Shown: piece by piece, positions 1-18,551 of the stretch
How positions within the stretch are numbered: position 1 is the first letter of the stretch
Layout of the letters: each line of letters begins with the position of its first letter
From: Gammaproteobacteria bacterium
Lineage (GTDB): Bacteria; Pseudomonadota; Gammaproteobacteria; Acidiferrobacterales; Sulfurifustaceae
Direction of reading: 5' to 3'
Length of the DNA stretch: 33,525 nucleotides
NCBI GenBank assembly: GCA_016200465.1
Contig: JACQER010000104.1
Span: forward strand, 1 to 33,525
The notes under the pieces: generated by a model
What the model was told of the DNA's origin: nothing
The model's input: the letters and a program-made list of their open reading frames with translations, nothing else
Databases searched by the model: none
Made by a program: the position numbers and the translations under genes

Positions 1-1155
1 AAGGAGTCGCCGTGGCTCGGAAAGGGTCTTGGCTCCTTCGGGCTGGTTTTCCCGGCGCATCAGAACCCCCTCGATTCGAGCGCGGGCTTCATGGTCCATA
101 ACGATTACCTGCAGATCTGGCTCGAGGCGGGATTGCCGGGGCTTGTTCTGTTGCTGGCGATCTACATTTCCGCTTTCGTGTTGTTCATCAGGGCGCTGCG
201 TAACCGGCGCCTGAGCCAGGCACGAGTTCTCGAGATCACGGGAATATTCACCGGCTTGCTTGTCGTCGCGTTGCACAGCTTCGTGAACTTCGATCTTTAT
301 GTTCTGCCCACGTTATTGGTGGCCGGCGTGATACTGGCGCGATTCCATGAGCTGACGACGGCAGGGTCGGGCACGGATGCTTGGACTTTCAAGCCGACAC
401 GTTACCTTCGTTTGGGAGTTTACCGGACGGTCGTATCGCTCGTGGTGCTGACTGGCGTCGTTTACTGGTTGTCGCATGCGCTTGCGAACTATGCCATCCA
501 GGAGGCCGTGCATCTGGCCAGCGCCGGCGAGCTCGACGCGGCCGACGAGGCGTTGTCGCGCGCGCAGCGGTTATCGCCGGACTCCGAGATGACGCTGGTG
601 GCGCGCGCGGAGCTGTATCGCAACGTCATCACTGCTGCGCCGGCCTCGGCCCTCGAGGATAAGCGGCGTTTGTTCCGTTCTGCGATGGAGGCGCTCGACA
701 GGGCCGAGCAACTCAATCCGTATCGCGCGGATATTTCGTTTCTGCGCGCACGGCTGCAGTGGCTCGTAAAGGACATGGCCGGAGAGGACTGGAAAGAGAA
801 AATGGTGCGCGACTACGAGCGCGCCATTCAGCTTCAACCGCGTTTCTTCACCGCCCGGACCGAACTCGCGGTATTCCGGCTCGAACAGGGCGAATACGAC
901 AAGGCGCGTCAGGTACTCGAGCGGGGAATGGCTTACAACTATGTCGGCCAGGAGCGGGTGTTTCCTTACTATCGTTTGACCGCCGCTCTGCGACGCAAGG
1001 CAGGCGATGTGAATGGCGCCAGGGAGCTTGATATGCGCATCGCGGACATATCGAGCGTTCCACCGGAAAAGCGTCCTTTGCCCCTGGATCAGGTCAAATT
1101 CTTCTCGTTTTATGATCTCTGGCACTGGGTTCTGGGACGGCTGGGATGGGTTTGA
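1..1155 (+). CDS. O-antigen ligase / PglL-like membrane glycosyl-transfer protein, 3' part
   Basis: The reading frame is open from the first base, so the 5' end lies outside the window; 384 codons remain. The visible N-terminal part has the ligase-type motif VHNDYLQIWLEAGLPG (codons about 31-46), typical of the Wzy_C family (O-antigen ligases, O-antigen polymerases and PglL/PilO-type protein O-oligosaccharyltransferases). Three hydrophobic segments follow (about codons 45-64, 80-111 and 140-160). The last roughly 220 residues are a soluble helical tail with TPR-like spacing (GELDAADEALSRAQRLSPDS; YERAIQLQPRFF). In this family such tails face the periplasm. Position directly upstream of pseudopilin genes suggests, by inference only, transfer of a glycan to pilins rather than to lipid A. 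The family call is fairly sure; the acceptor is unknown. Confidence 0.75.
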   Translation, partial: KESPWLGKGLGSFGLVFPAHQNPLDSSAGFMVHNDYLQIWLEAGLPGLVLLLAIYISAFVLFIRALRNRRLSQARVLEITGIFTGLLVVALHSFVNFDLYVLPTLLVAGVILARFHELTTAGSGTDAWTFKPTRYLRLGVYRTVVSLVVLTGVVYWLSHALANYAIQEAVHLASAGELDAADEALSRAQRLSPDSEMTLVARAELYRNVITAAPASALEDKRRLFRSAMEALDRAEQLNPYRADISFLRARLQWLVKDMAGEDWKEKMVRDYERAIQLQPRFFTARTELAVFRLEQGEYDKARQVLERGMAYNYVGQERVFPYYRLTAALRRKAGDVNGARELDMRIADISSVPPEKRPLPLDQVKFFSFYDLWHWVLGRLGWV

Positions 1156-1406: not shown

Positions 1407-1922
1407 ATGATCAGGTTGCATACGGCATTCCGAAGGGGAATTTTTCCGCAGGCAGGATTCACGCTTGTCGAAATCGTCGTGGCGATTCTGTTGATCGGCA
1501 TCCTGGCGTATTCCATTATTCCGCGATACCAGAACCGGGGCGTCTTCGATGTCAACGCGCAGGCGGAGCAGCTGGCGAGCGACATCCGCTATACCCAGTC
1601 GCTGGCCATGACCAGCGGGCAGCGCAACCGCATCAATCTCGCTGCCGCCTCGTATCAGATCACTACCAGCGCTGGCGCGCCCTTGGCGCACCCGGCGACG
1701 GGTTCCACAGTCGCGATTTCGCTCATCAACGTTTCGCTCAGCGGCTACAATCCTCCACTCACCAACAACTACATCGCTTTCGATGGGAAAGGGATTCCCT
1801 ACACCGACGTAGTAGCCGGCACTCCGCTCGGTGCGAACGCCACCATCACGCTTAGTGCAACCGGTGCCTCATCGCGTCAGGTCGTGGTGTCGCCGCAGAC
1901 GGGCAGGGTCCTTGTCCAATGA
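1407..1922 (+). CDS. type IV pseudopilin, GspH/FimT/MshC-like (cassette 1)
   Basis: Predicted 171-residue minor pilin. The ATG at 1407 is chosen because it places a short basic leader (MIRLHTAFRRGIFPQA) before the prepilin peptidase site G-FTLVE, with a purine-rich stretch (GCAGGG) about 10 bases upstream. The frame is open to 1299 but the added residues look non-coding. After cleavage the mature protein would begin FTLVEIVVAILLIGILAYSI, the hydrophobic stem helix of type IV pilins, followed by a GspH-like segment (LASDIRYTQSLAMTSGQRNR) and a beta-rich body ending VVVSPQTGRVLVQ. It most resembles MshC. It overlaps the next gene by 4 bases (ATGA), so the two are probably translationally coupled. 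Likely role: minor or initiating subunit of an MSHA-type pilus. Confidence 0.8.
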   Translation: MIRLHTAFRRGIFPQAGFTLVEIVVAILLIGILAYSIIPRYQNRGVFDVNAQAEQLASDIRYTQSLAMTSGQRNRINLAAASYQITTSAGAPLAHPATGSTVAISLINVSLSGYNPPLTNNYIAFDGKGIPYTDVVAGTPLGANATITLSATGASSRQVVVSPQTGRVLVQ

Positions 1923-2344
1923 AAACGTATTTTCATGTTCGCGGCGTGACGCTGGTCGAACTGATCGCGTTCATTATTATCGTGGGTGTTCTGGTTTCCG
2001 GCGTAATCGGCGGTGTCAGCACCACGATGCGCGGCAGCGCTACTCCCAAGCAGATCACGCAGGCCTTGCAATACGCCCAGGAACGCATGGAACTGATCCG
2101 GGCACAGAAAGACCGTCTGGGTTTCGCCGGTTTCACGGCCGCGACCTTTGATCCCTGCCTGACCGGTTCCACGCATCCTGCCTGCAGCTCCACGCCCGGA
2201 TATAACGTAGCCGTTCCGCCGCTGGATGTGACCGGCGCCTGCATGGGTAACGACGCGAATTACAAGTGCATCACGGTGACCGTGACCGACGCCACCACGG
2301 GTGCGCAACTCGCGCAACTGATCTCCGCCGTGGCGAATTACTGA
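1919..2344 (+). CDS. type IV minor pilin, MshD/PilV-like (cassette 1)
   Basis: 141 residues with a very short leader (MKTYFHVRG) and the cleavage motif G-VTLVE, then a hydrophobic helix (LIAFIIIVGVLVSGVIGGV). The following ITQALQYAQERMELIRAQK region is typical of MshD/PilV-type minor pilins. Four cysteines lie in the globular half (near residues 78, 88, 105 and 115), plausibly forming disulfides in the periplasm. The start overlaps the upstream stop as ATGA. The second cassette has a counterpart at 6712-7188. Minor-pilin assignment is firm; the exact Msh letter rests on gene order. Confidence 0.8.
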   Translation: MKTYFHVRGVTLVELIAFIIIVGVLVSGVIGGVSTTMRGSATPKQITQALQYAQERMELIRAQKDRLGFAGFTAATFDPCLTGSTHPACSSTPGYNVAVPPLDVTGACMGNDANYKCITVTVTDATTGAQLAQLISAVANY

Positions 2345-2345
2345 C

Positions 2346-2927
2346 ATGTTTTTTCATACCGACATTTCTCGCAACGCGGCTGGCACCGGTGCGGCGTCAC
2401 CACGGCCCGTGATCCGGAACGCGGGGTTCACGCTGGTCGAGTTTATCGTGGTCATCATCCTGGTGGGGATCATATTCGGCTTCGGGAGCACGCTGATCGG
2501 CAGGGTTTTCAGTTCCTATGCCTTGAAGCAGGACACCACCGACGCCGACTGGCAGGCCAAGGTCGCGCTGGAGCGCATGGCGCGCGAGTTGCGCATGGCG
2601 CGCACCGCCTCGGCGGCCGATCTCGACATCGCTTCGTTGACGCAGATCCGGTTCGTGGACACGGATGGCAACGGCGTCTGTTTTTATCGGAACGCGGCGG
2701 CCAACCGCCTGATGCGCAGTGCCGACGGCCCCGCGACCGCGTGCGGCACGACCGGTCCGCAGGTGCTGGCGGACAACATCACCGCGCTCGGATTCAGCTA
2801 CTGGAACAATGCCGGCACGAACACGGCGGCGGTGGCCAGCGTTTATTACATCACCGTGTCCGTGACCGTGGCGGAAGGAGCCTACAACAACGCCTTCCGC
2901 ACCAACTTGCGGCCGAGGAATTTCTGA
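2346..2927 (+). CDS. type IV minor pilin, MshO/PulJ-like (cassette 1)
   Basis: 193 residues. A leader of about 27 residues ends at the prepilin peptidase site G-FTLVE (RNAGFTLVEF), followed by the stem helix IVVIILVGIIFGFGSTLIG. The segment WQAKVALERMARELRMARTA is the GspJ/MshO hallmark, in which a long helix carries LxRMxRELR. A beta-rich C-terminal half contains two cysteines. It starts one base after the preceding stop and its own stop overlaps the next start. It is shorter than the mshO copy in cassette 2 (7188-8154) and lacks that copy's GE-VRLLYQVHV ending, so the two have diverged considerably. Confidence 0.78.
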   Translation: MFFHTDISRNAAGTGAASPRPVIRNAGFTLVEFIVVIILVGIIFGFGSTLIGRVFSSYALKQDTTDADWQAKVALERMARELRMARTASAADLDIASLTQIRFVDTDGNGVCFYRNAAANRLMRSADGPATACGTTGPQVLADNITALGFSYWNNAGTNTAAVASVYYITVSVTVAEGAYNNAFRTNLRPRNF

Positions 2928-4189
2928 TGTCTTTCCCGACGAATAATTTTTCGAGGCAACGGACTCTTGCGCCGCGGTTGATCGGCAGGCAGCGCGGTTT
3001 CCTGCTGTTGACCGCGGTGGTGCTGATCGTCGTGGTGGCGCTCATCCTGAGCGTGATGGTGTACCTGTCCGCGGCTTCCACCCGCTCTTCGGGAAAATTT
3101 CTCGCCGCCCAGCAGGCGCTTTTCATCGCCGGCAGCGGCCTGGAGCGCGGCACCCGTTTTCTGGTTTCGCCGGTGCTTGCCGAGCGATTGACCTGCGCCG
3201 CCGTCACCGGAAACGCGAACCTCACCAACGTCGCTTTCGCGCAGGGGCAATTCACGGTCAACGCCGGCAACGCCGGGACATCATATTATCCCGTGACCAC
3301 CCTGCGCTTGGCTCTCGGCAGTGCCGACAACACTGTGCCGGTGAACAGCCTCGCCGGGTTCGCGCCGGCCTGGCGCGTGCTGATCGACCGCGAGGCGATC
3401 GACTACAGCAAAACCGAGCCGGCCAATGACACGATCTGTGGTGGAGCTGGCCGCGCGCCGTGCCTGGTGGGTGCGCAACGGGGCCGCGACGGCAGCGTGG
3501 CGGTGGCGCATGTCACCGGTGCGCCGGTGGGACAGTATCAGTGCGATTTGCGGTCCCAAGGTGGAGTCCCCGACCTGGCCAATGCCCGCGGCAAACGCCT
3601 GGTGCAAAAAAGCGTGCAGTTGCAGGAAGGCTGGGCCGTGGGGGCCAACGGCGTTCTTTTCCGCTGGAATGATACGACGTGGCTGAATGCAGCCTCGCCG
3701 CTCGCGACGCAGCTGAACAGCGTTTCCATGCTTTCCTATGCCGATGGATGGGCCGTCGGCAACCAGTCCGGCGGTGAAGTGATCCTGCGCTGGACCGGCG
3801 GACCCAACTGGACGCGCGTCGGTCCGACCGGGCCGATTCCGAACACCAACCTGAACAGCGTCTATTGCGTCGCCAGCAACGATTGCTGGATCGTCGGCAA
3901 CCAGTCCGGCGGTGAAGTGATCCTGCGCTGGAATGGCGCGGCGTGGAACCAGGTGGGTCCCTCGACGGCCATACCCAATGTCAGCCTGCGCAGCGTCTAT
4001 TGCACCAAGTCCGATGATTGCTGGATCGTGGGCGACCAGTCCGGCGGTGAATTGCTGTTGCACTGGGATGGCACCGCCTGGGCCCGCCTGCCGGCCTCGG
4101 GCGCACTTCCGAACCAGAATCTCCGCGGCATCTGCATCGTCGGATCACGCCAGCGCCCGCAGGCGGCATGGCGCGAAGTTTTCCAGTGA
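2927..4189 (+). CDS. large PilX/MshP-like pilin with C-terminal Trp-rich propeller-like repeats
   Basis: 420 residues from the ATG at 2927, which overlaps the previous stop. The N-terminus has a basic leader ending QRG-FLLLTAVVLIVVVALILSVMVYL, a PilX/MshP-style stem in which Phe follows the cleavage Gly and no Glu is present at +5. Residues about 130-215 form a module with IDREAIDYSKT, CGGAGRAPC and QYQC that recurs in the next gene. From about residue 235 come repeats of the form W-x-VG-NQSGGEVILRW-G-x-W, about 45-46 residues apart, three of which are closely similar. They resemble bladed, kelch/YCF48-like beta-propeller repeats. The protein ends AAWREVFQ. Most minor pilins are 150-200 residues, so this looks like a pilin stem fused to a binding or adhesive head. 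The ligand is unknown. Confidence 0.7.
   Translation: MSFPTNNFSRQRTLAPRLIGRQRGFLLLTAVVLIVVVALILSVMVYLSAASTRSSGKFLAAQQALFIAGSGLERGTRFLVSPVLAERLTCAAVTGNANLTNVAFAQGQFTVNAGNAGTSYYPVTTLRLALGSADNTVPVNSLAGFAPAWRVLIDREAIDYSKTEPANDTICGGAGRAPCLVGAQRGRDGSVAVAHVTGAPVGQYQCDLRSQGGVPDLANARGKRLVQKSVQLQEGWAVGANGVLFRWNDTTWLNAASPLATQLNSVSMLSYADGWAVGNQSGGEVILRWTGGPNWTRVGPTGPIPNTNLNSVYCVASNDCWIVGNQSGGEVILRWNGAAWNQVGPSTAIPNVSLRSVYCTKSDDCWIVGDQSGGELLLHWDGTAWARLPASGALPNQNLRGICIVGSRQRPQAAWREVFQ
3754..4060 (+). repeat. in-gene direct repeats encoding Trp-rich propeller-like units
   Basis: A 41-base segment (3754-3794) recurs exactly at 3892-3932, 138 bases later. A third, diverged copy begins at about 4027, 135 bases after the second. 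All are in frame and encode the VGNQSGGEVILRW unit (VGDQSGGELLLHW in the third). The multiples of three and the conserved peptide show these are protein repeats. The exact 41-base identity points to recent duplication or gene conversion. Confidence 0.85.
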
Positions 4190-4197
4190 AGCGTTTC

Positions 4198-6111
4198 GTG
4201 TCCCACATGAATTCCATTTCCCGGCAACGCGGTTTTCTGCTGGTGACCGCGGTGGTGCTGATCATCATCGTTAGCTTGATTCTGACCGTTATGGTGTTCC
4301 TGGGCGCGACCGGAACCGATTCCAGCGTCGTGCATTCGCAGTCCGGGCAGGCGCTGTTTGCCGCGGAATCAGGCATGGAGCGGGCATTACGGGGTTTTTC
4401 CAAAGAGGGCACTGCCTGCGCGAACCTCACTTATAACAGTACCCTCTCCGCGGGCGCGACGACGGTGGCGTTTGCGACGGCCGGTACCGTGAATGCCCCG
4501 GCGAGCACAACGTTGTCCGCGAATATCAACGCGACCACGGCGATTATTCCGGCGACCAGTATCACTGGCTACGCTTCGCATGGCCGCATAACGATTGACG
4601 CCGAGAGAATCCAATACCAGGGTACATCCACCAGTGCTGTGGTCTGCGGTACTGCCCCGTGCTTCACCGGTACTGTTCGCGGTGTCGCGGGCACGCCCGC
4701 CGCCAGCCACAACATTAACGCTGTCATCAGGCAAAATCAGTGCGTGATCCGGGCCACCGGAACCAGCGGCAACACCACGCGCGCGATCGAGCGCGCGACG
4801 ACGATCTCGGATGGTACGGACGCGATGATGGCGTACGCCAAAGACTCACCCGCGGCTTCGGTCGGAATCCCGTTCTTCCGGATATGGGACAACACCACCT
4901 CGAGCTGGAGCGCGGAACAGTCCGCCACCAGCGTTGGCGCTGGCCGAATCATCCAATACGTGGTGCTGAAGTCCGCGCGTACGCGCAACGAGGTGATTTT
5001 AGGCACCCAGGACAGCACGGGCGATATTCGGGTGCAGGTATGGAATGGGACGGTATGGAGCGCGACGTCGTTCGTGGCAAATGTTGGTTCAGATACCACC
5101 TATCGGGGGTTTGACATTGAATACGAAACGAACGGAGACAGAGCCGTCCTTGTCTACAACAACGGCGCGAACAGCAATCTGAACTACTGGATCTGGAACG
5201 GCTCGGCCTGGTCCGCCCAGCCCAGTGTCGCCATGCCTATCGTCGGCAGACCGCGCTGGGTCGAACTCGCGCCGCATCCCGATCCGGCGAGCAATGAGAT
5301 TGTCATGCTGGTTCTCAGCAGTTCGTCCGAGATTTATGGCATGCGCTGGGGCGGCAGCGCATGGAGCAACATGGGCATTGCTCTTTCCTGGGATGTAGCG
5401 GTGATCACGTCCCGCAAGATCATTGATGTCGCCTATGAACAGCAATCCGGACGCGCGATGTTCGTGTGGGGCACGGCCGCCGCCGCGGGGTTTAAGTACC
5501 GGTTTTGGAATGGGGCGGCATTGACGGCTACCCAGAATTTTATATTTACGTCTTCAGTGCTCGCCGGTACGTCAAATTGGGTGCGGGTGGCGCCGAATTT
5601 GTTCTCCAACGAGATCATGTACGGGGTGCAGGATTCCGCGCGCGATCTTCATACGGCATATTGGAATGGCGCCAGTTGGATCGAAGGCCCCCGCCATGAC
5701 AGTAACGTCGAAAACGCGGCGAGCCGAAATTTCGATCTGGTATTCGATACGAACCCCGCCAGAGCAGGGGACGCCTGGCTCGTTTGGGGGTCACGTATCA
5801 GTACCGATTTCGCGCGCCGCCGGCAATGGACCGGCGGTGCCTGGAGCGGCACGATCACCAACTTCGCCGACGACGTTGCGCTGACACAACTGGCGGCTCA
5901 TCCCAATTCGGGATGGCTGTTTGCCGGTCTTTATGGGGATTCCACAGGCACCGCACGCAATTTGGTCGAGTATCATTACAATGGCGGTGCTTGGACTCAG
6001 ACGTCTATTTGGGGCGGTCCGGTAATAGCGGACCCCGTCCAGGAGCGGGTTTACCTCTCCCCGACACGTTTCGGGCTGGGTATCTATGATTGGGTGGAGA
6101 TTTTTCCATAA
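4198..6111 (+). CDS. very large PilX/MshP-like pilin with W-N-G-x-W repeat head
   Basis: About 637 residues. The GTG at 4198 is preferred because GAAG lies 6 bases upstream and it gives a short leader (SHMNSISRQRG). An ATG at 4168, overlapping the previous gene by 22 bases, and an ATG at 4207 are alternatives. The stem G-FLLVTAVVLIIIVSLILTVMVFLG is nearly the same as in the preceding gene. Residues about 120-190 repeat its module (ITIDAERIQYQGTS, CGTAPC, IRQNQC). The rest contains many W-N-G-x-x-W-like units (VWNGTVWS, IWNGSAWS, RWGGSAWS, YWNGASWI, QWTGGAWS, HYNGGAWT), consistent with a beta-propeller or similar bladed head. It ends YDWVEIFP, matching the AAWREVFQ end of its neighbour. Probably a tip or surface adhesin of the pilus; substrate unknown. 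Confidence 0.7.
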   Translation: MSHMNSISRQRGFLLVTAVVLIIIVSLILTVMVFLGATGTDSSVVHSQSGQALFAAESGMERALRGFSKEGTACANLTYNSTLSAGATTVAFATAGTVNAPASTTLSANINATTAIIPATSITGYASHGRITIDAERIQYQGTSTSAVVCGTAPCFTGTVRGVAGTPAASHNINAVIRQNQCVIRATGTSGNTTRAIERATTISDGTDAMMAYAKDSPAASVGIPFFRIWDNTTSSWSAEQSATSVGAGRIIQYVVLKSARTRNEVILGTQDSTGDIRVQVWNGTVWSATSFVANVGSDTTYRGFDIEYETNGDRAVLVYNNGANSNLNYWIWNGSAWSAQPSVAMPIVGRPRWVELAPHPDPASNEIVMLVLSSSSEIYGMRWGGSAWSNMGIALSWDVAVITSRKIIDVAYEQQSGRAMFVWGTAAAAGFKYRFWNGAALTATQNFIFTSSVLAGTSNWVRVAPNLFSNEIMYGVQDSARDLHTAYWNGASWIEGPRHDSNVENAASRNFDLVFDTNPARAGDAWLVWGSRISTDFARRRQWTGGAWSGTITNFADDVALTQLAAHPNSGWLFAGLYGDSTGTARNLVEYHYNGGAWTQTSIWGGPVIADPVQERVYLSPTRFGLGIYDWVEIFP

Positions 6112-6184
6112 TGCAGCGTTCTCAATGGGGCAATTCTTTATTTTCGGGTAATTCCGTCAAGGCAGTCGGCAAGGAATCCGCCTG

Positions 6185-6715
6185 ATGCGGACTCTTTCGC
6201 CAATATCAGTCAAGTTCACAGAGCATGGGACCCGCGGTTTGACCTCGGTTATCACCGGCTGCACCAAAGGCTTCACCCTCGTCGAGATGATCGTGACGCT
6301 GATCATCATCGCGTTGATCGCGGCGGTGAGCGGCCCGCTTTTTTTCAACATCAACACCTTCCGCGAGAGCGGGTTTTACGACGAAACGCTCTCCGCGATT
6401 CGCTACGCGCAGAAATACGCGGTGGCGAGCGGCTGCACCGTGCGCGTGCAGACCACCGCGACCGGGTTCACGCTCTACCGGCCCGCCGCTGTCGGCAACT
6501 GCAATACGCCGGGCTCCTATACGACGCCACTGACTGACCCTTCCGGCAACGCCACGACATTCACGCGCACCGCCCCGGACGGCGTGGCGCTTTCGGTGGC
6601 GGATTTCACTTTCACCGCCAGCGGCACCGCTTCGGTCTCGCCCTCGATCGCCATCACCGTCGGCAGCCGGCAGTTGACCGTCATCGGCGAGACCGGCTTC
6701 GTGCAGGCGCAATGA
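6185..6715 (+). CDS. mshC: type IV pseudopilin MshC-like (cassette 2)
   Basis: 176 residues; AAGGA lies about 10 bases before the ATG. A 28-residue leader precedes KG-FTLVEMIVTLIIIALIAAV, a standard prepilin peptidase site and stem helix. ETLSAIRYAQKYAVASGCTV is the GspH/FimT/MshC segment, and the protein ends with RQLTVIGETGFVQAQ, like the end of the cassette 1 homologue. Two cysteines (in SGCTV and GNCNT) are spaced for a disulfide. It overlaps the next gene by 4 bases. The order C-D-O-P-Q from here matches the classical MSHA minor-pilin block, which supports the symbol. Confidence 0.82.
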   Translation: MRTLSPISVKFTEHGTRGLTSVITGCTKGFTLVEMIVTLIIIALIAAVSGPLFFNINTFRESGFYDETLSAIRYAQKYAVASGCTVRVQTTATGFTLYRPAAVGNCNTPGSYTTPLTDPSGNATTFTRTAPDGVALSVADFTFTASGTASVSPSIAITVGSRQLTVIGETGFVQAQ

Positions 6716-7188
6716 AGCTCATGCCATTCCGCTCCCGTTTGCGCGGCGTCACCCTGGTGGAGCTGATCGTCTCCATCGTGGTGATCGGCACGGCGCTGGC
6801 GGGCATATTGGTGGTCATCGTGCGCAATGTCAGCGCCAGCGCCGATCCCCTCATCTGGCATCAGGCCGTAATCGTCGCCGAAGCCTATCTCGAGGAGGCG
6901 ATGACCAAGCAGTTCACCGACCCGAATCCTCCCGAAGGCGGTGAGACGCGCGCGACCTACGACGACGTTCTGGATTACAACAACATCGTTGCCGAATCCC
7001 CGCCGCGCGACCAGAACGGCAGCCCCATCGCGGCGCTGGCGGGTTACTCGGTGAACGTGCAGGTGACCACCGAGGCGTTGAACGACATTACTCTCGCCAG
7101 CGGCAATGCCGTGCGCATCCAGGTGACGGTCACGACACCCACCGGTGGCAGCGTCGTCGTCAGCGGCTATCGGACGAATTACAACTGA
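6712..7188 (+). CDS. mshD: type IV minor pilin MshD-like (cassette 2)
   Basis: 158 residues with leader MKLMPFRSRLRG before VTLVELIVSIVVIGTALAG, then the WHQAVIVAEAYLEEAM segment characteristic of MshD/PilV-type minor pilins (AxAYLEE). No cysteines. The ATG overlaps the mshC stop (ATGA), and its own TGA overlaps the mshO start by one base. This tight packing indicates one transcription unit. The paralogue at 1919-2344 shares the stem but little of the globular part. Confidence 0.8.
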   Translation: MKLMPFRSRLRGVTLVELIVSIVVIGTALAGILVVIVRNVSASADPLIWHQAVIVAEAYLEEAMTKQFTDPNPPEGGETRATYDDVLDYNNIVAESPPRDQNGSPIAALAGYSVNVQVTTEALNDITLASGNAVRIQVTVTTPTGGSVVVSGYRTNYN

Positions 7189-8154
7189 TGCGCGGATTCG
7201 ATAACCTCTCGAATGCAAGTTGCGTGCGTCGCAGCCGCGGCGTGAGCATGATCGAGCTCATCATCGTCATTACCATCAGCGGGATCATCGCCACGATCCT
7301 GGGGGTCGTCCTGGTGCGGCCGATTCAAGGTTACGAAGCGCAGGTACGCCGCGCGCAACTGGTCGACGCCGCGGAAATGGCGGTGCGCCGCCTGGGACGG
7401 GACATCCGCCAGGCATTGCCCAACAGCGTGCGCGTGCGCGACGCCCTCGGCAACACGAACAACGTGAACTGCTCGGCCACGGGCGCGGTCTGCACGATCG
7501 AGATGCTCAACACTCTGGACGGCGCGCGTTATCGGGAGGGACCGGGCAATATCGGTCACGACCATGGACCGACGCAGTACCGGCTGAAGGTTCCCGGAAA
7601 CGATAATAACGGTTTCAATATCGTCGGAGAGTTCCAGAATTTCCGACCCACGTTGCCATTTACTTCGACTTCGGAGCGCCTCGCGATCTATAACCAATCG
7701 GCCACCGGCGCCACCAGCGCCTATGCCGACGCGACGCTCGCGGCGGGCCCGTATGTGATCACCAATCCCAATGCACCGGCGAACACGAAGTTCATGTTGC
7801 AAGACGACGGCGGTGGAGATGAATGGCGGATCACGCCGTCCGGCAACCCCAATTTCAATTTCCGCTGGGCTTCGCCCAATCAGCGAATTTTCATCGTCGA
7901 CACGCCGGTGAGCTATGGCGAACGGCAACATCACGCGTTACTGGAATTATTCCATTACCGCCGCCCAACAGAGCGCGCCGGCCGGCGGCACCAGCGCCTT
8001 GCTCTCAACGCCGGTCACGGCCTGCAGCTTCAGCTACTCGCCGGGCACGAACCAGCGCGCCGGGCTCGTGACGCTCGACATTACCATCGCCGATGACGCC
8101 AGCGGCGAGCAGGTCCGGTTGCTGTACCAGGTGCACGTGGATAATTCCCCATGA
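7188..8154 (+). pseudogene. mshO: mshO-like minor pilin interrupted by a frameshift near 7917
   Basis: Frame 1 starts at the ATG at 7188 with leader ...RRSRG and stem VSMIELIIVITISGIIATIL. It continues through the MshO helix (AEMAVRRLGRDIRQALPNSV) to FIVDTPVSY at about 7916, and then turns into Arg/His-rich sequence with no pilin character, stopping at 8096. The expected continuation, ANGNITRYWNYSITAAQ ... RAGLVTLDI ... GEQVRLLYQVHV, is found in the +1 frame from about 7918 to the TGA at 8154, which overlaps mshP as ATGA. One extra base (or loss of two or five) near AGCTATGGCGAAC explains this. It may be a true mutation or a sequencing error. If restored, the protein would be about 321 residues, close to usual MshO length. 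Confidence 0.8.
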
Positions 8155-8603
8155 CGCGTCATGCCTCCATCCGTGGAAAACACGAGCGGGGTTTCGCCCT
8201 GGTCGCGGCCATTTTCATCGTCGTGGTGCTGGCGATGCTCGGGATCATGATGGTCACGATCGGCGGCATGCAGCGCGCCACCGCGAGCGTGGCGGTGCAG
8301 GGCGCGCGCGCGTTCTACGCCGCGCGCTCCGGAATCGAATGGGGGACTTTCGGGGCACTCAACAACACCGTGGCCACGTGCGGCAACGCCGCCTCCACGC
8401 CGACAACGAATACTTTCGCCCTGACGGTGTCCGGCCTTAACGGATTTACCGTGTCCGTGGTTTGCAGCTATACCACGCACCGCGAGCGCAACGATACTTA
8501 CAATGTGTATGTGATCAACTCCACGGCAACCTCGGGCAGTTTCGGGGACGCTGATTATGTTTCGCGCACCCTTCAGGTCACCGTGACCAATGCCCAACCC
8601 TAA
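8151..8603 (+). CDS. mshP: MSHA biogenesis protein MshP (PilX-like pilin)
   Basis: 150 residues; leader MTRHASIRGKHERG followed by FALVAAIFIVVVLAMLGIMMV, then GARAFYAARSGIEWG, the 'A-x-x-AARSGIEWG' signature of MshP/PilX-type pilins. A short beta-rich body has two cysteines (ATCGN, VVCSY) and ends RTLQVTVTNAQP. It overlaps the mshO stop by 4 bases. Compared with the two giant PilX/MshP-like pilins of cassette 1, this copy has the normal family length and no repeat head. Confidence 0.85.
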   Translation: MTRHASIRGKHERGFALVAAIFIVVVLAMLGIMMVTIGGMQRATASVAVQGARAFYAARSGIEWGTFGALNNTVATCGNAASTPTTNTFALTVSGLNGFTVSVVCSYTTHRERNDTYNVYVINSTATSGSFGDADYVSRTLQVTVTNAQP

Positions 8604-8726
8604 AACGTGCTGCATTGACCGCGTTTCACCGTTGTTCGCCGCTTTTTGGGCTATCCTTGAAAGAGGGGCCGTGCACTGCCGCCCGACTTGGGCCGTACAT
8701 CAGGTTCTGCATTTGATCGCATCAAC

Positions 8727-11700
8727 ATGACCAGTATGCTTTCAACGGGCGTTGAATCTGTATCCCGCATGGCAAGGATTATCAGCCCGGTTCTGGTCCT
8801 GCTGTTGGCGACAGTTTTGACGGTCGCACCATCCGAGGCGGCCGTGACTTTCCGCTCCGCTGCCTCCGCCAGTTCGGCATCCTCCACGCCCACGCGTTTC
8901 TATATGCAGAACGCGGCGCCGGACGTCACCGTGGCGACCCACCGCGGTGCCTGGGACGTCACGGGTTCGGTGCTGCAACGCAAGCTGGCGCGCACCAAGT
9001 CGGGCGCCATTGCCACCAAGGCCGTCGCCGAGGCCTCGGCTACCAACAACTACGACGTGCTCATGCTCAAGTTTGTGAGCGAGCCGATCACTGCCGCGCA
9101 GACGATCACGGGTACGCTCAACTGGATCGTGGGTGATCAGGAGTCGAGCAACAACATGAACGCCAATTGGCACGTCCATGCCTATGTCACGCAGGGCGAT
9201 ACCGATAACCTGCGCGGCACGCTGATCACCGACTATACCGAGGCCGCCGGCACCAACGAGTGGCCCACCACCGCGGTAGGCGATACCCCGAACGGTGCCG
9301 CTGCCGTTGCGCTTTCTTCGGTCGCTGTGTCCGCCAACGATCGCATCGTCATCGAGGCCGGTTACGTGGCCCGCAACAGCGTGACCACGAACTATACCGG
9401 CACCTTGTGGTACGGAGGCACCAGTGCGACCGATCTCACCGCGGGCGGGGATGAAACCAGCTTTCCGGGCTGGTGGGAGTTCAGCCAGGATCTGTTCAGC
9501 GTCAGCGCTCTCACCATTCCCAAGCCCGCCGGCACCCTCACGGCGGACGTGATGATCGCCTCGATCAGCGTCACGCCGAGCACGATTACCATCACGCCGC
9601 CCGTGGGTTGGACTTTGATCTCGACGGTGACCCAGAGCAGCGCCACCACGAGCAAGCTCGTCACCTATTACCGTGTCGCCGGTGTGGGCGAACCGGCCAG
9701 CTATTCCTGGGGTTTCTCCGGCGGGACACACAACGGCGCCGTCGGCGGCATCGCCAGTTTCAGCGGTGTGGACAATCTGGCGCCGATCGACGCGCAGGCG
9801 GGCACTCCCACGGTCAGCGCCACCAGCCATACCGCACCGAGCGTCACGACCACGCAATCCAACGGCATGCTGGTGACGGTTCACGAATACGCCAGCTCCG
9901 GGACATGGACGCAGCCCGGGACGATGACCGAGGCTCTGGATGTGGCTTCACTGACACCGAACAACGCCAGCGGCATCTCGATGGAAATGAATTACGAAAC
10001 CCGTCCCACGGCCGGCGCCACCGGAACACGTCAGGCCAACGCCAGTACCACCGCCGACAGCGGTGCGACTCAATCGGTGGCGCTGAAGGCCGCGCCCCTG
10101 GTCTGCTACACCGACAACTTCAACCGCGCCAACGGTTCGCCCGGCAGCGACTGGGTCGTTTCCAGCACCAGCGGAGGATTCGGCAATCCGGTCATCGTCA
10201 ACAATCGTTTGCGCCTGACGGATGCGACCGGCAACGTCGCGACCATGGCGACCCTGCAGCGCCTGTTCCCGGGATCGGGCAACCGCATCGAGGTGGATTT
10301 CGATCACTTTGCTTATGGCTTCTCTGGTTGCGCGGCTGACGGCATCGCCGTCACGCTTTCGGACAGCGCGGTCACGCCGGTTCCCGGCGGCTATGGCGGC
10401 TCCCTGGGCTACGCCCAGCGCACGGGCATCAATGGCTTTGCCGGCGGCTGGCTCGGGATCGGAATCGACGAGTACGGAAATTTCTCCAACCCCACCGAAG
10501 GGCGCTCGGGCGGCCCCGGGTTCCGGGTCGATTCCGTCGCGGTGCGTGGTTCCGGCTCCGGCACCACCGGCTATGCCTATCATGCCGGTACCAACACCCT
10601 GACCCCGCAAGTGGACAACAACGGCGCGGCCGTCCCGCCGCATCACTACCGCATCATCGTCGACCATTCCAATGGCGTGAACGCGATGGTGTCGGTCGAA
10701 CGTGATACCGGCGCCGGCTATGTCACGCTCGTGGCGCCCTACGATGCCAAGGCCCAGGCGGGCCAAGCCGCGGTGCCGACCGGCTGGCTGCTGTCCTACA
10801 CCGGCTCCACCGGTGGCTGCAACAACATTCATGAAATCGATAGTCTGCAAGTCTGCGCGACGTCGCAGACGTCGATGACCGGGATTCATCATTTCGACAT
10901 TACTGTCGGGCCCTCGGCGAGCACCTGTTCGCCACAAAGCGTCACGATAGTGGCCCGGGACATATCGAACAATATATTGACCGGCTACACCGGCACCGTC
11001 CAGATCACCACCTCCACCTCACATGGCGACTGGTCGAAAGTAAGCGCCGGTGGCACGCTCACGAACGGCACGGCGGACGACGGCGTCGCGACCTACACCT
11101 TTGTTGCCGGTGACAACGGGATTATCACGCTCGGGTTCACTAATACCCACGCGGACGATCTCACGTTCAACGTCACGGATGTCGCCGTGCCGAGCTCGAG
11201 CACGACGTCTTCGGTGACCACCAGCTTTCGTGATAGCGCCTTTGTCATTACGCCGGATACGATTCAGATCGCCGGGCGCAATCAGAACATGACGGTGGCT
11301 CTCTACACCAAGGTCGGTGGCAGTTGTACCCCCGACACCAACTATACCGGCGCCCGGACTCTGGACGCTTGGCTCACGCTCGATCCGAGCCATCCCGCCG
11401 GCGCCACCGTGCCCACGATCGGTGCCCTGACCCTGCCGACCTCAGCGCCGGCCTCGAACCCGGCGTCGAACAACCTCACGCTGACTTTCACTGCGGGTGT
11501 TGCGAGCTTCGCTTTGGCCACCACCGACGTCGGCCGGTACGTTCTCAATATGCGCGACGATACGCGCACCTACGCCACGGCGGTGGACCTCGGCGGCGCC
11601 AGCAGCAGCATCACCACGCGCCCGTGGTTGCATGTCGCGGTCAGCGGCAATCCCGGCGCCAGTGCTGCTACGGGCACGGTCTTCACCTCGGCCGGCACCG

Positions 11701-12968
11701 ATTTCAGCGCCACCGTGCGCGGCGTGTTGTGGCAGGCCGCCGACGACGCGAACAATGATGGCATTCCCGACAGCGGCGCGAACCTCGTCGACAATACCGC
11801 GGCGCCGCGATTCGCCTGGGATACTGTTCTTTCACCCACGATACCGTTTACACCCGCCACTCCCTCCGACGCGCCGGCAGGTACCGGAACGGCCGGCACG
11901 CTGACTCGCGGATCCGGGGGCAGTACGGTCACGCAGGCGAGTTTCAGCAGCGGTTCCGCGACCGTCACGGACTGGCGTTACAGTGAGGTCGGCAGCTTCA
12001 CCCTGCGCGCCACGGCGAGCAACTATCTCAACAGCGGAATCAACGTGGCGACTGACAACGGCGTGGTCGGCCGCTTCACGCCGGCCTATTTCGACGTCGC
12101 CCGCATCCACGGCTGCCCCGTGGGCGCGGACCCCCTGTTGTTTACCTATTCCGGTCAGCCGTTTACCGTTACCGCCACCGCGCGCGCCGCGAACAGCGGT
12201 GCGGTGACCTTGAACTACGACGGCACGCTCGGCTTTGCCAAGGCCACGACCATTTCGGATGCCGGCAACGCCGCTAATTTCACGAACAACGTTCTCGCGG
12301 CCGCCAATTTTTCAGCCGGTACCCGGACCCAGAGCACCGTGACTTACACCTTCCCCGCCAAGGAGACCGCGCCGGCCACGCTGACGCTGCGCGCCGTTGA
12401 CACGGACAGCGTCAGTTCGGCCGGTCACACCGAAGAGCAAACGCAAATACGCAGCGGGCGCGTGCATATTTACAACGCCTACGGCTCCGAACTCGTGGAC
12501 CTGCTGGTATCGACGCGAGTGGAGTATTACGAAGACACGACCGTCACCGCGCCCGCAACTATTCCTCCCATCACCGGCTGGATCGCGAATGGTGGCGACA
12601 GCTGCAGCAGCGTGGGTCTGAGCGCCCTCAGTAATTTCCAGGGAAATCTCGCATCGGGAGAAACCTGCGTGCAGGACACCGGCAGTCCCGGTGTCAGCGG
12701 TCAAGGCTGCGCCGCCGCCGGACCGCTGGCACCGGTGAACGAACGTTACCTCGCCTTGCCTTCAGCGGGCGATTACAACCTTTACCTGAAAGCACCGGGT
12801 GCCACCAACGATGGCAGTGTGGACGTGACCGCCAACCTGGCCACGAAAACATGGTTGCGCTACGACTGGAACGGGACGGGCTCAGACGTTGACCCGACGG
12901 GCCAGGCCACTTTCGGTCTTTATCGCGGCAGCCCGAAGCATATCTACCTGCGCCAACGCTACAACTGA
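8727..12968 (+). CDS. mshQ: MshQ-like giant surface protein with ConA/LamG-like domain and DUF6701
   Basis: About 1413 residues. The start is uncertain: the ATG at 8727 is chosen, the ATG at 8769 would begin right at the signal peptide (MARIISPVLVLLLATVLTVAPSEA), and no good Shine-Dalgarno sequence precedes either. After signal cleavage (about residue 38) there is a beta-rich region of unknown family (40-260), a segment with PKPAGTLTADVMIASISV (260-455) and a concanavalin/LamG-like jelly roll starting DNFNRANGSPGSDW (about 459-710). Ig-like regions follow (HHFDITVGPSASTCSPQSV onward, 720-1110). The C-terminal DUF6701 (about 1115-1413) runs from YFDVARIHGCP to FGLYRGSPKHIYLRQRYN, the signature end of MshQ. 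It is secreted and likely displayed with the MSHA-type pilus; carbohydrate binding is an inference from the jelly roll. Confidence 0.8.
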   Translation: MTSMLSTGVESVSRMARIISPVLVLLLATVLTVAPSEAAVTFRSAASASSASSTPTRFYMQNAAPDVTVATHRGAWDVTGSVLQRKLARTKSGAIATKAVAEASATNNYDVLMLKFVSEPITAAQTITGTLNWIVGDQESSNNMNANWHVHAYVTQGDTDNLRGTLITDYTEAAGTNEWPTTAVGDTPNGAAAVALSSVAVSANDRIVIEAGYVARNSVTTNYTGTLWYGGTSATDLTAGGDETSFPGWWEFSQDLFSVSALTIPKPAGTLTADVMIASISVTPSTITITPPVGWTLISTVTQSSATTSKLVTYYRVAGVGEPASYSWGFSGGTHNGAVGGIASFSGVDNLAPIDAQAGTPTVSATSHTAPSVTTTQSNGMLVTVHEYASSGTWTQPGTMTEALDVASLTPNNASGISMEMNYETRPTAGATGTRQANASTTADSGATQSVALKAAPLVCYTDNFNRANGSPGSDWVVSSTSGGFGNPVIVNNRLRLTDATGNVATMATLQRLFPGSGNRIEVDFDHFAYGFSGCAADGIAVTLSDSAVTPVPGGYGGSLGYAQRTGINGFAGGWLGIGIDEYGNFSNPTEGRSGGPGFRVDSVAVRGSGSGTTGYAYHAGTNTLTPQVDNNGAAVPPHHYRIIVDHSNGVNAMVSVERDTGAGYVTLVAPYDAKAQAGQAAVPTGWLLSYTGSTGGCNNIHEIDSLQVCATSQTSMTGIHHFDITVGPSASTCSPQSVTIVARDISNNILTGYTGTVQITTSTSHGDWSKVSAGGTLTNGTADDGVATYTFVAGDNGIITLGFTNTHADDLTFNVTDVAVPSSSTTSSVTTSFRDSAFVITPDTIQIAGRNQNMTVALYTKVGGSCTPDTNYTGARTLDAWLTLDPSHPAGATVPTIGALTLPTSAPASNPASNNLTLTFTAGVASFALATTDVGRYVLNMRDDTRTYATAVDLGGASSSITTRPWLHVAVSGNPGASAATGTVFTSAGTDFSATVRGVLWQAADDANNDGIPDSGANLVDNTAAPRFAWDTVLSPTIPFTPATPSDAPAGTGTAGTLTRGSGGSTVTQASFSSGSATVTDWRYSEVGSFTLRATASNYLNSGINVATDNGVVGRFTPAYFDVARIHGCPVGADPLLFTYSGQPFTVTATARAANSGAVTLNYDGTLGFAKATTISDAGNAANFTNNVLAAANFSAGTRTQSTVTYTFPAKETAPATLTLRAVDTDSVSSAGHTEEQTQIRSGRVHIYNAYGSELVDLLVSTRVEYYEDTTVTAPATIPPITGWIANGGDSCSSVGLSALSNFQGNLASGETCVQDTGSPGVSGQGCAAAGPLAPVNERYLALPSAGDYNLYLKAPGATNDGSVDVTANLATKTWLRYDWNGTGSDVDPTGQATFGLYRGSPKHIYLRQRYN

Positions 12969-13219: not shown

Positions 13220-14149
13220 TTACCGTTTCTGAAAAAAAGGATGCTCCCCGGTCTGACCGGCGTGGGGCTGCGACCGGATGGTGTTTGTGTGGTGCGCGTC
13301 GAGCGCACGACCGGACGCATGCCGTCCGTCACGCTGGTGGATTTCCGTCCCTGGGGTGACCAGGGGCAGGACAAGGTTCTGGCGCGCGTCGCGGCCGATT
13401 ACGACCTCGCGCGCTCGCGTTGCACCACCATTCTCGATCCGAACGAATACACGCTGTTGCTGACCGAGGCGCCGGACGTGCCACCCGACGAGCTGCGCGC
13501 CGCGATCCGCTGGCGCATCAAGGATTTGATCGATTTTCACATCAACGACGCGACGCTGGATGTCTTCGACCTGCCGGGCGAGAAAGCCTCTGGTCGTGCA
13601 CGCTCGATGTACGCCGTGGCCGCGCGCAGCACCGCCATTCAGAAACGCGTGGATATGATGACCGCGGCCGGCATCAATCTGGATGTCATCGACATTCCGG
13701 AGATGGCGCAACGCAACCTGGCTTCGCTGCTGCCGGACGACGCGAAAGGAGTTGTCCTGCTGTCCTTCACACCGGGCGGCGGACTGATCACCATCACCAG
13801 GCAGTCTGAAATATACCTGAGCCGCGGCATCGACATCGGGCTCGACATGTTGAAACAGTCGCAGGATACCGCCGGGCTTTTCGACCGGATCGCGCTCGAG
13901 GTGCAACGCTCGCTCGATTATTACGACAGCCATTTCCGCCAGGCGCCGATCAACACGGTGGCGCTGGCCCCGATGCCCGTGGAGGTTCCGGGATTGGTGG
14001 ATTACCTCAAGGCCAACCTCAATGCCAACGTGCTGGTCATGGATTTGACGCAGATCATGCAGTGCGACGTGCAGTTGCCTCCGGCGATGCAGTCGACCTG
14101 CCTCGGTGCACTGGGCGCAGCGTTGCGACAGGAGGAGAAGTCGCTGTGA
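13217..14149 (+). CDS. mshI: MSHA biogenesis protein MshI (PilM-like)
   Basis: About 310 residues if translation begins at CTG 13217, giving the N-terminus LLPFLKKRMLPGLTGVGL with the initiator read as Met. Starting at the ATG at 13241 would remove the first eight residues, including the LPFLKKR stretch that normally opens MshI. The body matches the MshI/PilM actin-like fold: GLTGVGLRPDGVCVVRV, LRAAIRWRIKDLIDF, MYAVAARSTAIQKRVDMMTAAGI, and IALEVQRSLDYYDSHF near the C-terminus. It acts at the cytoplasmic face of the inner membrane, scaffolding the PilN/PilO-like proteins encoded next. Its stop overlaps the next start (GTGA). The family call is firm; the start codon is an inference. Confidence 0.82.
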   Translation: MLPFLKKRMLPGLTGVGLRPDGVCVVRVERTTGRMPSVTLVDFRPWGDQGQDKVLARVAADYDLARSRCTTILDPNEYTLLLTEAPDVPPDELRAAIRWRIKDLIDFHINDATLDVFDLPGEKASGRARSMYAVAARSTAIQKRVDMMTAAGINLDVIDIPEMAQRNLASLLPDDAKGVVLLSFTPGGGLITITRQSEIYLSRGIDIGLDMLKQSQDTAGLFDRIALEVQRSLDYYDSHFRQAPINTVALAPMPVEVPGLVDYLKANLNANVLVMDLTQIMQCDVQLPPAMQSTCLGALGAALRQEEKSL

Positions 14150-14762: not shown

Positions 14763-15440
14763 ATGCAAATCGATCACCTGAAAATGCAGTTCAAAGGATT
14801 CACCGACCGGATCGACGCCATGTCGCTGCGTGAGCGTGGCCTGATTTTCGTCACGCTTCTCGTGGCCCTGTATTTTGTGGCCGTGAACATGTTGTTTGGG
14901 CCGGTCTACACCGAAAAGGACCGGTTGCAGAAACAACTCGACCAGCGGCACGAAGAGACTCGACTGCTGGAGACGCGGGTGCAGAACATTACCGTCGGCG
15001 ATGCGAGCAGCCCGGAGGAAACCAAGCGCCGGAAAATCGCTTCGCTGCAGGAAAACCTGAAATCAATGGACGTGGCGCTTGATCGCGCGACCGCCGGGTT
15101 GGTGCCGCCCAGGGAAATGGCGAAACTGGTCGAGCAGATGCTGGTGAAAAACCACGGCCTGGAAGTGATCAAGATGGAAAGCCTCCCCTCTGCGCCGCTG
15201 CTGGAAGCGGGCGCGGAAACCGATGGGAAGGCCAGTGAGTCGATGGTTTACAAGCACGGGATGAGGATAGAGCTCAAAGGTAATTACCTCGATATCCTGC
15301 GCTATCTGCGGTCGTTGGAAGGCCTCGAATGGAAGGTTTTCTGGGGACAGGTGACATTGCAGGCTGAAAAATATCCGGTCTCCAGGGTCAGTTTGCTGAT
15401 CTATACCCTCAGCACTCATCAGGGGTGGATCGGATTATGA
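14763..15440 (+). CDS. mshJ: MSHA biogenesis protein MshJ (PilO/GspM-like)
   Basis: 225 residues from the ATG at 14763. Layout: short cytoplasmic N-terminus with SLRERGLI, one membrane helix (IFVTLLVALYFVAVNMLF, about 28-45), a periplasmic coiled coil (KDRLQKQLDQRHEETRLLET) and a C-terminal PilO/GspM-like domain (YKHGMRIELKGNYLDILRYL; KVFWGQVTLQAEKYPVSRV). It would pair with the PilN-like protein to form the inner-membrane alignment complex between MshI and the MshK/MshL outer part. Its stop overlaps the mshK start by 4 bases. Confidence 0.85.
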   Translation: MQIDHLKMQFKGFTDRIDAMSLRERGLIFVTLLVALYFVAVNMLFGPVYTEKDRLQKQLDQRHEETRLLETRVQNITVGDASSPEETKRRKIASLQENLKSMDVALDRATAGLVPPREMAKLVEQMLVKNHGLEVIKMESLPSAPLLEAGAETDGKASESMVYKHGMRIELKGNYLDILRYLRSLEGLEWKVFWGQVTLQAEKYPVSRVSLLIYTLSTHQGWIGL

Positions 15441-15883
15441 AATTCGCTCTTGGCACGAAACTTGATACAAATGGCTACAGGAAAGCCGGCCCATGGTTAA
15501 TGGCCGGTCGGGCCGCGGTGATGCTGGCCTGTGTGGCGGGGCATGTTGCCGCAAGCCAGGCGAACGATTCGCTGGCCGGACTCGCGGACCCGACGCAACC
15601 AGCGTACAGCGGTGCAACGGGCGGAGCTGTAGCGCAAAAACCGGCGGGCCCGATGCTGCAATCGACTTTTATCTCGACGAGCCAGCGTCGCGCCGTGATC
15701 AGCGGCAAGACCTATGCAATCGGCGATAAATTTGGCGGCGCCGTGATAACGGAAATTCAACCGTATGAAGTGGTGATGAAGCGGGCAGACAAGGAATCGC
15801 ACCTGCGTTTATTGCCGAAATTGGCGAAGGAAACCCTGTTCGTGAAAGTTCCGGCGAAAAGCCAAGAAGGCGGGCAAAGATGA
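15437..15883 (+). CDS. mshK: MSHA biogenesis protein MshK (PilP/GspC-like)
   Basis: 148 residues from the ATG at 15437, which has AGGGGTGGA 7 bases upstream and overlaps mshJ as ATGA; a GTG at 15425 is less likely. A signal or anchor segment (LMAGRAAVMLACVAGHVAAS) is followed by LADPTQPAY, the DPT(R/Q)P motif of MshK, and a small beta domain (RRAVISGKTYAIGDKFGG / VITEIQPYEVVMKR) like the GspC/PilP homology region. It should sit in the periplasm and connect the inner-membrane complex to the secretin encoded next. It overlaps mshL by 4 bases. Confidence 0.82.
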   Translation: MKFALGTKLDTNGYRKAGPWLMAGRAAVMLACVAGHVAASQANDSLAGLADPTQPAYSGATGGAVAQKPAGPMLQSTFISTSQRRAVISGKTYAIGDKFGGAVITEIQPYEVVMKRADKESHLRLLPKLAKETLFVKVPAKSQEGGQR

Positions 15884-17574: not shown

Positions 17575-17606
17575 AACATGACATCCATGGGAAGCAGGTG
17601 ACAGAA

Positions 17607-18551
17607 ATGTACGGAACGCATTTCGGGCTGCAGGAACTGCCGTTCACCATCACGCCGGACACGAGTTTTTTCTTCGCCCATTCCTCGCATCAGGAGGCGT
17701 TGAACACGCTCCTGGTGGCGGCGCGCAGCGGCGAGGGCTTCATGAAGGTGATCGGCGAGGTCGGCACCGGCAAGACCCTGCTGTGCCGCAAGTTCATGAG
17801 CTCGCTCGATCACCGCGAGTTCGTCACCGCCTATATTCCCAATCCCTATCTGCAGCCGATGACGCTGCTGCTGGCCGTGGCCGACGAGCTCGGCATCAAG
17901 TATCCGCAGCACATCAACCAGCATCAGCTGCTCAAGCTGCTCAACCGCTATCTCATCGACGCTTACGCCGAAGGCAAGCGCGTGCTGGTATGTCTGGACG
18001 AGTCGCAGGCGATTCCGCTCGAAACGCTGGAGAGCCTGCGGCTGCTGAGCAACCTGGAAACGGAGCGGCGCAAGCTGCTGCAGGTGGTGCTGTTCGGCCA
18101 GCCGGAACTCAACACACGTCTCGACAATCCGTCGATCCGTCAGCTCAAGCAGCGCGTGAGTTTCGCCTGCCAGCTGTCGCCGCTCTCCCTGAGCGAGGTC
18201 GAGTTCTATATTTCACACCGGCTGGCGGTGGCGGGTTACCGCGGGCCGCGGCTGTTCGCGCACAAGGTGGTCAAGCAGATTTACCGTGCCAGCAACGGCA
18301 TTCCGCGGCTGGTCAATATCCTCGCGCACAAATCGCTCATGGCCGCTTTCGGCGAGGGCGCGCGCACCGTCACCGAGCGGCACGTGCGCATGGCGGTGGC
18401 GGACACCGAGTCCACGCAGGGCATGTGGACCGTGAAGGCGAAAATACTCAAATACCTCACGGCACTGGTGCCGTTGGCGGTTATCGGTTGCTTTACCCTT
18501 GCTAACCTCGCGCTTCACGGCGGCGCATTGATCACAGGCGGTTCCATGTGA
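17607..18551 (+). CDS. mshM: MSHA biogenesis AAA ATPase MshM (ExeA/GspA family)
   Basis: 314 residues from the ATG at 17607. The open frame extends to a GTG at 17598, but MYGTHFGLQELPFTITPDTS is the usual family N-terminus and AGGTGA lies 5 bases before this ATG. Walker A GEVGTGKT is at residues 50-57, and Walker B VLVCLDE has the acidic pair D131-E132. The FGQPEL and RQLKQRVSFAC motifs are those of ExeA/GspA ATPases. A single C-terminal membrane helix (LTALVPLAVIGCFTLANLAL) replaces the longer peptidoglycan-binding tail of GspA. Family role: helping install the secretin in the cell wall. GTGA overlap with mshN. Confidence 0.9.
   Translation: MYGTHFGLQELPFTITPDTSFFFAHSSHQEALNTLLVAARSGEGFMKVIGEVGTGKTLLCRKFMSSLDHREFVTAYIPNPYLQPMTLLLAVADELGIKYPQHINQHQLLKLLNRYLIDAYAEGKRVLVCLDESQAIPLETLESLRLLSNLETERRKLLQVVLFGQPELNTRLDNPSIRQLKQRVSFACQLSPLSLSEVEFYISHRLAVAGYRGPRLFAHKVVKQIYRASNGIPRLVNILAHKSLMAAFGEGARTVTERHVRMAVADTESTQGMWTVKAKILKYLTALVPLAVIGCFTLANLALHGGALITGGSM

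Follow-up and report, generated by a model that had tools for sequence, protein, structure and literature searches.

Why should a single MSHA-type pilus machine be served by two adjoining sets of minor pilin genes, one ending in the secreted protein MshQ and the other in two giant pilins? The window analysed here raises this question, a stretch of 33,525 nucleotides from a Sulfuricaulis-type MAG (Acidiferrobacterales, 77 % complete, contig C185) that holds its msh locus. Our preferred reading, to which we assign a probability of roughly 60 %, is that one MSHA-type machine is supplied with two tip-initiation cassettes of different ancestry, one providing the last strand of its terminal pilin in trans and the other in cis.

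Layout of the msh locus

The locus was read from gene calls, Pfam and NCBIfam, which agree on gene order with a first-pass annotation that had described two tandem cassettes of the order C-D-O-(P-like). All genes lie where that annotation had placed them, and as they recur as orthologues in related genomes, a chance arrangement is excluded. Cassette 1 (C1-D1-O1-X1a-X1b, 1407–6111) and cassette 2 (C2-D2-O2-P2-MshQ, 6185–12968) are both located 5′ of mshI and are followed by the machine genes MshI to MshN. In the following, loci with a long O (227–323 aa after trimming), MshP and MshQ are called Q-type, and loci with a short O (149–168 aa) and a terminal pilin of 150–900 aa, without DUF6701, X-type.

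1–1155, forward strand: PglL/O-antigen-ligase-like membrane protein with a TPR end (Wzy_C below cut-off, plus TPR; 5′ end outside the window)
1407–1922, forward strand: C1, MshC/GspH-type minor pilin (GspH E 1.9e-7; X-type group in the tree)
1919–2344, forward strand: D1, MshD/PilV-type minor pilin (PilV model E 3.4e-4, below cut-off; X-type clade)
2346–2927, forward strand: O1, short MshO/PilW-type minor pilin of 193 aa (N-methylation motif; X-type clade)
2927–4189, forward strand: X1a, putative modular tip pilin of 420 aa with four YCF48-like repeats and the tail AWREVFQ
approx. 4150–4186, forward strand: C-terminal tail of X1a (..QAAWREVFQ), proposed to dock as donor strand in cis
4198–6111, forward strand: X1b, putative modular tip pilin of 637 aa, head with W-N-G-x-x-W repeats, tail DWVEIFP
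6185–6715, forward strand: C2, MshC/GspH-type minor pilin (GspH E 1.1e-5; Q-type group in the tree)
6712–7188, forward strand: D2, MshD-type minor pilin (D tree)
7188–8154, forward strand: O2, long MshO-type minor pilin with a frameshift near 7915, beyond which (about 7915–8154) the C-terminal part is read in another frame
8151–8603, forward strand: P2, tail-less MshP of ordinary length
about 8724–12968, forward strand: MshQ, putative secreted tip protein with C-terminal DUF6701 (PF20419 E 1.4e-81) and the tail IYLRQRYN
13241–14149, forward strand: MshI-like (PilM-type) machine gene (family search; 77–85 % identity within the genus)
from 14140, forward strand: remaining msh machine operon with MshJ-like, PilO-like and T2SSB-like (15425–15883) genes (synteny and similarity)
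15880–17574, forward strand: MshL secretin (synteny and similarity)
17598–18551, forward strand: MshM ATPase (synteny and similarity)
18548–19984, forward strand: MshN, TPR protein (synteny and similarity)

The product of the first gene is possibly a pilin glycosyltransferase, and PglL-like genes are also found 5′ of the cassette in relatives. As expected of an MSHA locus, MshI to MshN adjoin the cassettes and MshE and MshG are encoded elsewhere in the genome, each as a single copy in the assembly on contig C100, with 91 % and 87 % identity, respectively, to the S. limicola-like complete genome G004; the major pilin MshA lies beside MshE/G in relatives. Neighbouring genes in each cassette mostly overlap or nearly abut and the gap between X1b and C2 measures 73 bp, so both cassettes may form one operon.

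X1a and X1b occupy the last place in the C-D-O set and carry a PilX-type N-terminus without Glu5 (QRGFLLL and QRGFLLV), which characterises them as MshP/PilX-type pilins. The PilX_N model scores 15.1 bits for X1b, below its cut-off of 25.5, and does not match X1a; a protein search with X1b retrieves P2 and other X pilins. Neither protein is matched by PF20419 (DUF6701) or by PF05567, and since the latter has no match in the whole 77 % complete assembly either, we rejected cassette 1 as a PilY1 kit. A single frameshift-split gene encoding X1a and X1b was ruled out by the separate pilin start and separate tail on each of them, and a frameshift artefact at the end of X1a by relatives ending in the same tail.

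Cassette 2 had been described as closing with a normal MshP and MshQ, and both are present, the product of 8724–12968 bearing PF20419 at its C-terminus. The description needs correction upstream, as O2 lacks 14 nt at 7905–7925 compared to five relatives, which shifts the frame and removes a conserved Cys codon. Cassette 2 may therefore be inactive in the MAG, and cassette 1 might be the working tip kit of the organism beside a decaying neighbour. The deletion in a region that is in frame in five relatives and an E to Q exchange in the tail of the window's MshQ would fit this scenario, whereas P2, C2, D2 and the MshQ frame of about 1.4 k codons are all open and a frameshift in one MAG could also stem from assembly error or strain variation, so that we consider decay possible but doubtful.

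Ancestry and distribution of the two cassettes

Cassette 1 is of Msh type by locus and phylogeny and does not cluster with an unrelated pilus system, in line with the first-pass annotation. In the C tree, C1 lies outside the clade formed by FimT (100/100) and apart from GspH; D1 and O1 cluster with their counterparts in other msh loci. The same tree places C1 of the window with X-type and C2 with Q-type genes, although X-type C is not monophyletic, six rows of another branch and two of genus g14 falling on the Q side. With X and Q labels assigned from locus content, X-locus and Q-locus genes part on one branch both in the D tree (46 rows, 100/100) and in the O tree (47 rows, 100/98).

A local duplication, in which one msh cassette was copied in tandem within this lineage and the copies then diverged and grew their heads, was the origin suggested in the annotation; it fell with these trees. 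It could draw on the same gene order occurring twice, adjoining and on the same strand, and adjacent cassettes do arise, as seen in genome G016, where contig C27 (L119) carries a Q-type cassette twice in tandem, each copy complete (C-D-O-P-MshQ) and with its own MshQ. AU tests nevertheless reject Sulfuricaulis clades uniting C1+C2 (p = 1.6e-35), D1+D2 (4.5e-6) and O1+O2 (1.5e-4), placing the divergence of the cassettes long before the genus Sulfuricaulis, and other families hold either cassette alone. This makes a local duplication highly improbable; the phylogenies instead indicate that the cassettes are old alternatives brought together, with D and O lineages that separate cleanly by locus type across the Gammaproteobacteria.

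To follow both cassettes, about 80 loci were read after searching with X1b as protein query, with a profile of nine X proteins, and for MshI and DUF6701. Both cassettes occur in the window, G004 and G005, and probably in L238, the end of which matches the start of C2. G001 carries cassette 1 only, immediately 5′ of mshI. MshQ was found in G002, G003, G006, G007 and G008, and protein and profile searches did not find X there, an absence that is provisional because G002, G003 and G008 are less than 90 % complete and several of the contigs stop close to the cassette. In genus g24 (G040, G044), the msh locus contains C1-, D1- and O1-like genes but lacks X, which occurs elsewhere as an orphan of about 605 aa. 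Such orphan giant X pilins (L027, L028, L030) measure 604–611 aa and lie beside a LysR-like gene, away from the X-less msh loci.

The distribution also bears on the idea that both cassettes build one joint tip complex, with the cassette-1 pilins under or beside the cassette-2 tip. The likely single operon and the single machine would suit such a complex, but many otherwise complete msh loci have just one cassette, so neither needs the other, and each cassette comprises a full C-D-O-P/X set; we judge a joint complex quite improbable. Two alternative tip complexes for one machine, as envisaged in the first-pass annotation, are in our view a reasonable reading given the pilin-borne heads, the lack of an MshQ in cassette 1 and the single MshE/MshG pair in the assembly.

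A C-terminal tail on pilins and secreted tip proteins

X1a and X1b end in AWREVFQ and DWVEIFP, and MshQ proteins in IYxRExY (IYLRERY, IYWREKF, IYIREPW), whereas MshP ends right after the strand with the invariant VxR. Residues W632 and E634 at the extreme C-terminus of X1b are invariant in an alignment of nine X proteins. Among the terminal pilins of X-type loci, 34 of 39 show the tail pattern, as do 36 of 37 MshQ proteins, compared to 0 of 25 MshP, 1 of 201 C, D, O and MshI proteins and 0 of 118 other window-type genes, counts that are only descriptive as the regular expression was drawn after seeing the same data. The tail IYLRQRYN of the window's MshQ is a near miss that falls outside the expression due to Q in place of E. 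PilY1 proteins from the same taxonomic order end in SWRQLK, SWRELQ or TFWYDE; comparable W-containing tails were seen in 13 PilY1-type proteins and in 0 of 11 PilX.

Of the five X-locus pilins without the tail, three (L021, L024, L238) precede a secreted protein that ends in PWREQYQ, NWREVFQ or PWREEFR; the C-termini of L148 and L231 are unusual. Tailed secreted proteins of 554, 588 and 629 aa are encoded in G004, G001 and L238; a Pfam scan of these 554–629-aa proteins gave no clear domain. Judged from the protein sequences, the rule would be that a tail-less pilin is accompanied by a tailed secreted protein, while a tailed pilin stands alone.

The position of the tail becomes apparent from head-less X pilins of 152–194 aa in genera g14 and g16, in which a linker of roughly 4 to 30 residues separates VxR from the tail that follows, a position taken by the head in the long X pilins. 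The earlier description of cassette 1 as carrying the large head on the pilin itself thus holds for the head and was incomplete in that an MshQ/PilY1-type C-terminal tail is present as well.

Concerning the heads, that of X1a matches YCF48 proteins both in a profile search (8am5, E 1.1e-5) and with Foldseek (5ojp, 9.4e-7, with low TM-scores), which makes X1a a modular pilin in the sense of Pelicic, i.e. a pilin module plus a recognisable fold. YCF48-like propeller heads are found in X1a and most relatives. X1a contains four WAVG-type repeats, near-identical at the DNA level at 3754 and 3892 (3754–3930) and likely prone to changes in repeat number; its count of about four is too low for the usual closed propeller. 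In G005 and G013, a dozen or more repeats are present. The designation as giant repeat-bearing pilins accordingly suits X1a better than X1b, whose repeats are looser and whose fold is not assignable from a poor model. AlphaFold2 gave a mean pLDDT of 74 for X1a (tail 33) and of 55 for X1b (tail about 28), and left the tail unplaced in both. Searches of solved structures returned no match for MshQ and 3hx6 only for a PilY1 relative.

For Myxococcus PilY1, a published model has the last eight residues joining PilX as an additional strand (PMC11046646), and strand addition between PilY1 and PilX has been reported for further complexes (PMC13190605). As the PilY1 tail is modelled as a β-strand that completes PilX, we propose that the cassette-1 pilins hold this strand in cis. 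In each cassette, the C-D-O minor pilin trio would carry a PilX/MshP-type pilin in last place at the tip, and this pilin appears to require one further C-terminal strand for its fold. In cassette 2, MshP ends after the penultimate strand and the C-terminal tail of MshQ would supply the missing one. X1a and X1b bear the tail on their own chain, with the head inserted in the loop before it, so that each could act as a functional fusion of MshP and MshQ; their heads, a YCF48-like propeller in X1a and propeller-like repeats in X1b, may be adhesive. The likely role of the tail is to fasten the head to the pilus, and the cell would gain two kinds of tip able to start the same pilus. Gene content, the separate ancestry, the distribution of the tail, its place behind the pilin in sequence, the shuffling of heads and the one MshE/G pair of the assembly are observed; strand docking, tip location, adhesion and the expression and use of both kits are what we infer.

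Alternatively, the tail might be a C-terminal export, sorting or stability signal common to tip proteins. Its placement at the very C-terminal end of pilins and secreted non-pilins alike, as well as the unplaced tail in the AlphaFold2 models, would be compatible with a signal. However, tail-less pilins end just before the tail position and have a tailed partner, which a sorting signal would not need, and in the published model the PilY1 end serves as a strand within PilX (PMC11046646), making a mere signal unlikely compared to the proposed donor strand.

Known pilus tips and exchange of heads

Cassette 2 shares gene order, a DUF6701 MshQ and adjoining msh machine genes with Vibrio-type MSHA (MshC-D-O-P plus MshQ). 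The window differs in that a second, differently built cassette without MshQ precedes it. The FimU/FimT-PilV-PilW-PilX-PilY1 set of type IVa pili has the same roles by order, and its PilY1 has a tail like those of X1 and MshQ and its PilX none; the X1 pilins, unlike this set, lack PF05567 and unite pilin and head in one chain. ComZ of Thermus thermophilus and GspK of type II secretion resemble X1 in that an inserted head interrupts the pilin fold. The ComZ head sits exactly between the last pilin strand and the one before it (PMC6561018), an arrangement that fits the sequence layout of X1, although AlphaFold2 left the X1 tail unplaced. ComZ, to which we found no sequence match of X1, has a β-solenoid and serves DNA uptake, whereas X1 combines propeller-like heads and an MSHA context with a tail common to secreted tip proteins. 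PilB and PilC of Streptococcus sanguinis likewise carry a large functional module on a small pilin and are probably tip-located (PMC8179133), but there the module follows the pilin via a short loop, while in X1 the conserved tail comes after the head. Several tip kits per machine are known from Myxococcus xanthus with its three minor-pilin/PilY1 clusters (PMC13190605); those kits all include a separate PilY1, whereas here one kit would work in cis and one in trans. Judging by its title and its citation in PMC13190605, the preprint by Ellison et al. (2026) on strand complementation in tip initiation complexes may already cover the strand principle; for MshQ, we found no tip-structure study in the literature.

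The proposed arrangement bears on how adhesins attach to pilus tips and why only some pili need a PilY1-like protein. A tail on secreted tip proteins and head-bearing pilins, and not on ordinary last pilins, would provide a simple rule, readable from sequence, as to which protein completes which. With this rule, tip proteins can be predicted in unannotated loci, the 554–629-aa secreted proteins being an example, and strand completion becomes testable by deletion of a few residues.

Between genomes, C1, D1 and O1 keep 64–77 % identity, in contrast to the X heads, which are unrelated. Similarity to stretches of MshQ was seen for certain X heads, namely those of L117 and L031 (1e-7) and L023, which matches the MshQ of L183 at 3e-20, a value that the common WAVG-type repeats may inflate; MshQ loci with heads resembling some X heads are L183, L113 and L141. 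At the DNA level, L225 and L238 are 88 % identical before X, 90 % within the first 149 bases after the X start region and 94 % after X. Between these shared stretches, L225 encodes a tailed pilin of 897 aa versus a tail-less pilin of 326 aa plus a tailed secreted protein in L238, a pattern such as a recombinational format switch would leave. It is worth mentioning that the contig of L238 is titled Gallionella sp. and that its C1 is nearly identical to that of a Sulfuricaulis MAG, pointing to misbinning or recent transfer.

With about even odds, MSHA tips may come in two interconvertible formats, with the last strand either in trans (on MshQ or a 554–629-aa secreted protein) or in cis behind an inserted head; loci would switch by recombination and share heads, and Sulfuricaulis would keep both formats for one machine.

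Further variation in tip genes was observed. Two tailed MshQ genes lie behind one minor-pilin set in L114 (G006) and side by side in L180 (G300). In L149 and L151 (G282, G166), FimT-PilV-PilW-PilX-like minor pilin genes are found a few kb from MshQ and MshI. Between MshP and MshQ in G006 (L114, 3032–3559) and directly after MshP in G019 (L034, 7321–7851) lies an ECF-type sigma factor gene, a position that suggests local control of the tip protein.
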